Assembly: GCA_017513905.1 (NCBI GenBank)
Contig: JAFWMR010000010.1
Coordinates: 1 to 64,000, forward strand
Direction of reading: 5' to 3'
DNA from: Candidatus Saccharimonadota bacterium
GTDB lineage: Bacteria; Patescibacteriota; Saccharimonadia; Saccharimonadales; Saccharimonadaceae
Length of the DNA: 64,000 nucleotides
The translations under genes were made by a program, and so were the position numbers. Below, piece by piece: positions 36,174 through 37,562 of this stretch. Each line of letters starts with the position of its first letter. Within the stretch, counting starts at the first letter, position 1. Under the pieces are notes generated by a model, which saw only the letters and a program-made list of their open reading frames with translations, did no database searches and had not been told where the DNA came from.

Positions 36174-37127
36174 ATGTTTAGAAAACTCAGAAATCATTTC
36201 ATATTAATCAATCTTGCGACGACATCTTTCATCTTAATCGCAGCGTTTTCTAGCATCTATATCGTCGCAAAAAATTCCTCTGATACGCGTCGCCCCATTC
36301 CTATCGAAATAAATTTTGAAGAGTCTACCGACAAACAAGAAATTAAATTCCGTCAAATCATGGAAGAGCGTATCATCGCTGACCGCGAGGTTTCGCTAAA
36401 GTCACTCTTGGTTACACTAATTATTATCGGTGTAGCAGTAGAAATAGTCGTCGCAATTTTTTCCTATCTTTTCGCCGAGCAAGCCATCAAACCAGTTAAA
36501 ACTGCATACGAAACTCAAAAAATTTTTATCGCCAATGCGTCGCACGAGATAAAGACGCCTGTCGCCGCAATCAAGGCAAACTTAGAAGCCGCCGACTTGA
36601 GCGAAGAGAATCACTGGATCAAAAACATCGAAATCGAAGCCGACAAAATTGAAACCCTAAATCTTGCCCTGCTACGCTTGGCAAAAACCGATGCAGTACA
36701 AGAAACGCTTTTCGTCGAAGAGTTCGATCTAAAACGCACTACGAGCGGCATAGTTTCATCCTTCTCTTCGCGCATTAAACAAAAGGGAATCAAGCTAAAA
36801 AACAATGCTGTAAGCAAAAAGATTAAGCTAAACCGTAGCGACTTCAAAGAAATCTTCGAAATCCTATTAGACAACGCCATCAAATATTGTGACAAATCAA
36901 TCGACATTACAGTCACGTCAAAAACCTTGACCATCACAAATGACGGCACGACAATTCCGAACGATAAAATCTCTCACGTGTTCGATCGTTTCTATCAAGT
37001 CGACAAAACCAGCTCTGGCTCAGGCCTAGGGCTCGCAATCGCCGACTCGCTCGCCAAAAGGAACAATTGGCAACTCACTGCCAAGTCGAATAACAACTCC
37101 ACTACATTTGAGTTATATTTCGCATAA
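36174..37127 (+). CDS. Sensor histidine kinase
   Basis: A 317-residue kinase. Transmembrane helices at about 10-32 and 78-100 enclose an extracellular loop of only about 45 residues, so it may sense the envelope rather than bind a large ligand. The phosphorylated His124 lies in NASHEIKTPV; ATP-binding motifs are LLDNAIKYC and GSGLGLAI. TGTTATAAT (36159-36167) ends 6 bases before the ATG: leaderless. Confidence 0.94.
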   Translation: MFRKLRNHFILINLATTSFILIAAFSSIYIVAKNSSDTRRPIPIEINFEESTDKQEIKFRQIMEERIIADREVSLKSLLVTLIIIGVAVEIVVAIFSYLFAEQAIKPVKTAYETQKIFIANASHEIKTPVAAIKANLEAADLSEENHWIKNIEIEADKIETLNLALLRLAKTDAVQETLFVEEFDLKRTTSGIVSSFSSRIKQKGIKLKNNAVSKKIKLNRSDFKEIFEILLDNAIKYCDKSIDITVTSKTLTITNDGTTIPNDKISHVFDRFYQVDKTSSGSGLGLAIADSLAKRNNWQLTAKSNNNSTTFELYFA

Positions 37128-37265
37128 ATAGCGAGCGGGGAGATAGTCTCGTCTCCGTCGGCGTACCGCAGGTTACGACCGAGGTCCGGCAAGCGCCTCG
37201 CCCGTGACGACGGGCCGAGGCGACTTGCGTCCGACGGAACGAGCTATCGACCACAAGCGAGCTAT
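37128..37265. ncRNA. GC-rich element with a predicted three-way-junction RNA fold, no known family
   Basis: Nested complementary segments: ATAGC/GCTAT (37128-37132 with 37261-37265), GATAG/CTATC, CTCGT/ACGAG and TCCGTCGG/CCGACGGA (37154-37161 with 37231-37238) form a long closing helix. Inside are two hairpins: CGTACC with GG(T)TACG at 37162-37177, and GCAAG, GCCTCG, CCCGT with ACGGG, CGAGGC, CTTGC at 37189-37228. Composition is far more GC-rich than its surroundings. AGCGAGC is repeated at both edges (37130-37136, 37256-37262). No clear promoter or T-run terminator, so strand is open; a mobile repeat is the alternative. Confidence 0.55.
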
Positions 37266-37322
37266 ACTCCGCACATCAGAGTTTGGCAAGAACAACGATA
37301 TCAAACATGCTATAATGGGATT

Positions 37323-37562
37323 ATGATTAGAGTGTTCACAACCCCAACTTGCGTCTACTGCCACGCTCTTATGGACTGGCTAGATGACCAAAACATTAAA
37401 TACAAAGAAATTGATGCCACCACATCAGACGAGGCCATCAAACTCGGGATTTCTAGCGTCCCAGTCACAATCGTAACTAACGCCGACGGCGAAGAAATCG
37501 CCAAAATCGTCGGCTTCGATCGTCCCGCCCTCAAGAAAGCCATCAAGAAACTAGCTTTGTAA
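37323..37562 (+). CDS. Glutaredoxin-like protein
   Basis: A 79-residue thioredoxin-fold protein with the active site TPTCVYCH (CxxC) and the cis-Pro motif SSVPVTIV, ending in a helix. It is likely a NrdH- or glutaredoxin-type disulfide reductase. TATAAT (37311-37316) with TGC extension ends 6 bases before the ATG: leaderless. Confidence 0.9.
   Translation: MIRVFTTPTCVYCHALMDWLDDQNIKYKEIDATTSDEAIKLGISSVPVTIVTNADGEEIAKIVGFDRPALKKAIKKLAL

Follow-up and report, generated by a model that had tools for sequence, protein, structure and literature searches.

The window (the whole stretch of 64,000 nt of DNA that was analyzed) contains a response regulator and histidine kinase gene pair, followed by a 138-base block that begins immediately after the stop codon of the kinase and, downstream of it, a glutaredoxin gene (Table 1). 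A TATAAT box ends 6 nt before the glutaredoxin ATG, with the spacing of an apparently leaderless gene. This box and the Pfam assignments agree with the location given in a first-pass annotation made from the sequence alone. The GC content reaches 0.65 in the sliding interval with the best coverage of the block, against 0.32–0.53 in the surrounding DNA, as that annotation had noticed. It had also seen no convincing protein in the block; there is indeed no start codon, but an open frame on the plus strand continues from the block into glutaredoxin, and such a start-less frame fits a family that is probably often translated within other genes.

Table 1. Coordinates of the element and its neighbors in the window
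Feature	Position	Strand	Support
Histidine kinase gene, stop codon abutting the element	36174..37127	+	Pfam HATPase_c and HisKA
Entire hairpin with its outermost ATAGC/GCTAT pairs (not common to the siblings)	37128..37265	+	Fold z −6.7; flank comparison
Left AGCGAGC of the edge duplication; the GCGAGC within it is the left end of the unit	37130..37136	+	Also in most subfamily siblings, which lie at different loci
Fixed-arm subfamily unit (GCGAGC ... GCGAGC), ~132 bp, mobile palindromic element	37131..37262	+	Seven siblings from four other genomes aligned; empty site in five relatives
Core hairpin 1 (GGT-TACG-ACC)	37165..37185	+	Covariation: both-sided changes in 4/6 pairs
Core hairpin 2, 17 pairs	37189..37228	+	15 pairs modelled, both-sided changes in 8; 99.3% of cells paired
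AGCGAGC repeat at the right edge, where the unit ends	37256..37262	+	Also in subfamily siblings, which lie at different loci
Probable −10 box (TATAAT) of the glutaredoxin gene, beyond the element	37311..37316	+	Sequence; G002, G022 and G087 also have it ahead of the glutaredoxin ATG
Glutaredoxin gene	37323..37562	+	Pfam Glutaredoxin

Energy-model folding of the block gave a minimum free energy of −78.4 kcal/mol, compared with −53.2 ± 3.8 for shuffled sequences (z −6.7; 0 of 200 shuffles as good), while the minus strand also folds (z −4.6). The fold obtained is the three-way junction described beforehand, in which a closing helix surrounds a small and a large hairpin, the latter with 17 pairs in our count vs. 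16 in the earlier one. An Rfam search returned no family at the gathering threshold for the block, the only gathering-score match in the window being a tRNA elsewhere, and at a permissive threshold the best sub-threshold match had an E-value of 8.1, which agrees with the earlier statement that the block does not match RNase P, SRP, 6S, or tmRNA signatures.

We compared the locus among relatives. The distance from the histidine kinase stop codon to the glutaredoxin ATG is 195 nt in the window, 33 nt in genome G002, and down to 2 nt in other relatives, and five relatives have an empty site between the two genes. A sixth, G087, contains upstream of glutaredoxin a short stretch resembling the right end of the element, which by this resemblance is probably a decayed copy. 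In addition, a unit of ~132 bp that begins and ends with GCGAGC emerges from alignment with siblings that have the same arms as the window copy and come from four other genomes, although variants occur; in the stretch examined of L004, the left-hand GCGAGC is missing. The consensus fold of the window copy and its siblings has 44 pairs, 15 of them with changes on both sides. The AGCGAGC duplication reported at the edges of the block is thus present at both, but its origin as a target-site duplication was rejected, since GCGAGC ends most of the siblings at different loci and is therefore part of the element itself. The arms of the window copy are fixed and element-borne rather than locus-specific, and this copy is most likely a neutral insertion, not a dedicated RNA.

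By blastn, which had been proposed as a check for further genomic copies, the block is single-copy in its own genome, but related matches (E ≤ 1) occur in 88 of 100 genomes of the genus, many of them at several loci, and these lie in scattered contexts other than the histidine kinase/glutaredoxin pair. A covariance model of the two-hairpin core found it in 90 of the 100 genomes, with 0–33 copies per genome, which upholds the mobile palindromic repeat that the first-pass annotation had left open. With this model, the window's own genome contains three core copies: that of the window, one in a cysteine desulfurase on a short contig, and one decayed. Across the phylum, the core was detected in 5 of 287 genomes, four of these belonging to the same family. 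An exact composite pattern matched 47 stretches among ~85,000 species, all from Saccharibacteria and mostly from sheep or goat gut, while longer queries against phages, plasmids, and IMG/VR gave zero matches. An exact 18-base viral match (L031) was dismissed as a chance match within a phage gene, the second hairpin being missing. Y1 transposase is found in 3 of the 100 genus genomes and is absent from the window's own genome; given this near-absence, we rejected a Y1 (RAYT) transposase as the mobilizer. As a separate observation, a 3,653-base contig (C11 of G000, locus L033) carries a second cysteine desulfurase with an in-frame core copy that is 95–98% identical to the desulfurase of G080, though both genomes differ far more elsewhere, reflecting either horizontal transfer or a misbinned contig.

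Among 45 unselected copies, with a median hairpin of 120 nt, 34 lie within open frames, in frame. The other 11 adjoin genes without a clear gene break, mostly ≤ ~50 nt from a 3′ end, and several intergenic copies have A-tract/T-tract stems resembling terminators. Conserved genes that host copies without being broken by them include gatB, dnaX, mnmA, truB, ligA, polA, pheT, leuS, tsaD, der, and others, as named from translations, with three of the proteins checked by Pfam. At one site in cysteine desulfurase, 39 alleles have a short linker (13–21 aa) and 26 have one of at least 33 aa; all 26 long alleles are in frame and contain no stops, and their linkers do not all necessarily belong to this family, the shortest showing no clear palindrome. 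The 13 alleles that carry this core have a median linker of 50 aa. Filled and empty alleles both exist for tsaD and leuS as well.

Several further observations concern these host genes. Different palindromic cores occur at the same in-frame desulfurase site in other genomes (L139/L147/L150, L142/L144/L146, and L143/L151), indicating that more than one element family inserts at this hot spot. The alleles L104/L107 and L142/L144/L146 were considered as an exact empty/filled desulfurase pair and set aside, because a deletion between GTCC repeats gives the same result. The tsaD gene of G002 contains a full copy, and that of G060 (L174) retains, in frame, a short piece of the element's left end, which we read as a deletion derivative kept as a linker. 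The leuS proteins of G031 and G060 (L184 and L185) are 96% identical before the insertion but only 72% beyond it, which looks like a recombination tract that stopped at the element. A single gene, mnmA of G044 (L009), harbors two in-frame core copies.

A shared core within a long stem whose sequence differs at almost every site sets this family apart from an ordinary repeat. One genome has four copies with identical 67-nt cores and different outer stems, and another has three such copies. The stems of the 45 copies average ~25 Watson–Crick pairs; between loci, the identity of the outer arms is 0.46, vs. 0.40 after shuffling, with a weak common purine/pyrimidine pattern, and part of the stem may thus belong to the element. 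In the core, 12 of 21 pairs show compensatory changes, and 49 cells are changed on both sides vs. 2 on one side, a scarcity of one-sided changes that is unusual for an RNA evolving through G-U. The compensatory changes that the first-pass annotation would expect of an RNA are therefore present, but their pattern, together with the in-frame insertions in conserved genes, points to a palindromic DNA element. In the outer stems of coding copies, read in the mRNA sense, there are 30 A-C mismatches vs. 5 G-U (p = 2e-5), and on the element strand of all copies G-T mismatches exceed A-C by 40 to 11, these counts being partly dependent, with homologous sites included. Such an excess of A-C over G-U makes it unlikely that the pairing being preserved is that of the mRNA, and points to stems that are made or repaired at the DNA level rather than selected for mRNA structure, with template switching probably the best-fitting process. 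The net gain at the desulfurase site is ~102 nt vs. a hairpin of ~120 nt, which suggests that one arm could be host sequence, as this would be expected to leave the gain below the hairpin length. When close empty alleles were sought for a two-copy region, the best relative had 83% identity and itself carried the element, and among the alleles compared no closely related filled/empty pair revealed the origin of the arms.

Based on these results, we consider it very probable that the block in the window belongs to a family of non-autonomous mobile palindromic DNA elements in Saccharibacteria. The element combines a two-hairpin core (~65 nt) with an extended inverted repeat at its base. It recurs at unrelated loci in one genus and is nearly absent from the rest of the phylum, and orthologous sites without it exist; its copies within genes are in frame without stops, and the fold of its core is conserved through paired changes. 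In the model that we propose, copies would spread via a putative mobilizing enzyme, and insertions would survive in the least harmful places, either immediately behind a stop codon, the position of the window copy, or in a variable protein loop where the insert forms an in-frame linker. As for the basal stem, its complementarity would arise or persist at the DNA level. The most likely process is template switching during replication at the hairpin, in which one arm, from the element or from flanking host DNA, would be copied onto the other. Points that weigh against the model are the near-absence of Y1 transposase, the fixed arms of the window copy, the weak pattern common to the outer arms, and the search for a close filled/empty pair, which found none. 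A bolder version, which we offer tentatively and rather doubt, is that core insertion creates a locus-specific inverted target duplication (a host arm plus its new reverse complement), unlike known transposons, coupled to continual repair of the stem by template switching and to recurrent in-frame domestication in proteins.

Alternatively, the core could insert into the loop of pre-existing hairpins, such as terminators or chance palindromes, the locus-specific stem then being older than the insertion. The proximity of intergenic copies to gene 3′ ends and the terminator-like stems of several of them speak for this scenario, which we nevertheless judge unlikely, given that most copies lie in conserved genes, that the empty alleles examined have no long palindrome there, and that the net length gain in desulfurase suggests a single pre-existing arm. 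The reading favored by the first-pass annotation, a structured regulatory or non-coding RNA acting at the histidine kinase–glutaredoxin locus or in trans, would account for the very stable fold and the many compensatory changes of the core, but is highly improbable: the block is not conserved at this locus, as the five relatives without it show, and copies are dispersed over unrelated genes, frequently within frames that are probably translated. Moreover, paired changes almost never pass via G-U, wobble pairs in genes are not kept on the mRNA strand, and Rfam offers no match. That the element is an intron or is bypassed in translation, its stem pairing the flanking exons, would suit the always stem-flanked insertions in conserved genes, and can be given hardly any credence, since the in-frame, stop-free state of all 26 long desulfurase alleles would be needless under splicing or bypassing and since G-U pairs are not kept in the mRNA stem.

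A literature search for such elements in Saccharibacteria found no paper and, as far as could be searched, the mobile palindromic element is new to this phylum. Most knowledge of protein-coding palindromic repeats comes from Rickettsiales, though some other microbes have yielded reports. Among known kinds, the nearest is the Rickettsia palindromic element (RPE), which the Saccharibacteria element closely resembles in its described properties. RPEs are palindromic repeats of 105–146 bp, located between genes and in frame in many conserved genes, and one RPE-bearing enzyme has been reported to be translated and active (PMC2229807, PMC10969869); these reviews, which cover the work of Ogata et al., assign no transposase to RPE or to the counterparts in Wolbachia. 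Both families are thus dispersed palindromic repeats of ~100–150 bp with a stable hairpin (median 120 nt in Saccharibacteria), inserted between genes and in frame in unrelated conserved genes. They belong to different phyla, and the common two-hairpin core with a locus-differing stem has no equivalent in what the reviews describe for RPE. Bacterial MITEs, e.g., ERIC, RUP, and Correia/NEMIS, are short, non-autonomous, hairpin-forming dispersed repeats, many of them intergenic and some with open frames (PMC2229807, PMC10969869). The Saccharibacteria element shares these general properties; however, MITEs have constant terminal inverted repeats, and several have target-site duplications, whereas most Saccharibacteria copies have no constant terminus. 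Constant ends are found in the window subfamily and not in most other copies, and a search for a related transposon, which covered Y1, yielded none.

REP elements are dispersed palindromes mobilized by Y1 (RAYT) transposases, often near gene 3′ ends. The Saccharibacteria element is likewise a dispersed palindrome often located near gene 3′ ends, but it is longer and frequently in frame in genes, and the rarity of Y1 transposases (3/100 genomes) excludes a REP/RAYT identity. In mitochondria of Nematomorpha, long inverted repeats, or coding palindromes, occur in protein genes (PMC6649704, PMC8794818), and template switching can, within a single event, generate a perfect stem or restore it (PMC8794818). 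Unlike the Saccharibacteria element, these hairpins, as described, have no common mobile core repeated across loci.

The density of copies throughout a genus of ultrasmall Saccharibacteria suggests more than one colonization of reduced genomes in this way. The identical cores with different complementary stems, together with the filled and empty forms of conserved genes in many species, make two questions testable, namely by what means elements of this kind insert when no transposase is obvious, and what creates long inverted repeats in coding DNA and keeps them perfect. For annotation, these inserts show up as unexplained linkers in conserved proteins.

Two minor features of the copies were also noted. 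At L066, L062, L064, and L087, as in the window (37255–37316), a TATAAT box and an ATG follow shortly after the right end of the element, and such copies may adjoin, or contribute to, promoters. Finally, at stem positions 3–6 from the core in the 45 copies (L190–L236), many have adjacent A-G/G-A mismatches beside the first three stem pairs, resembling, on the element strand, tandem sheared G-A pairs.
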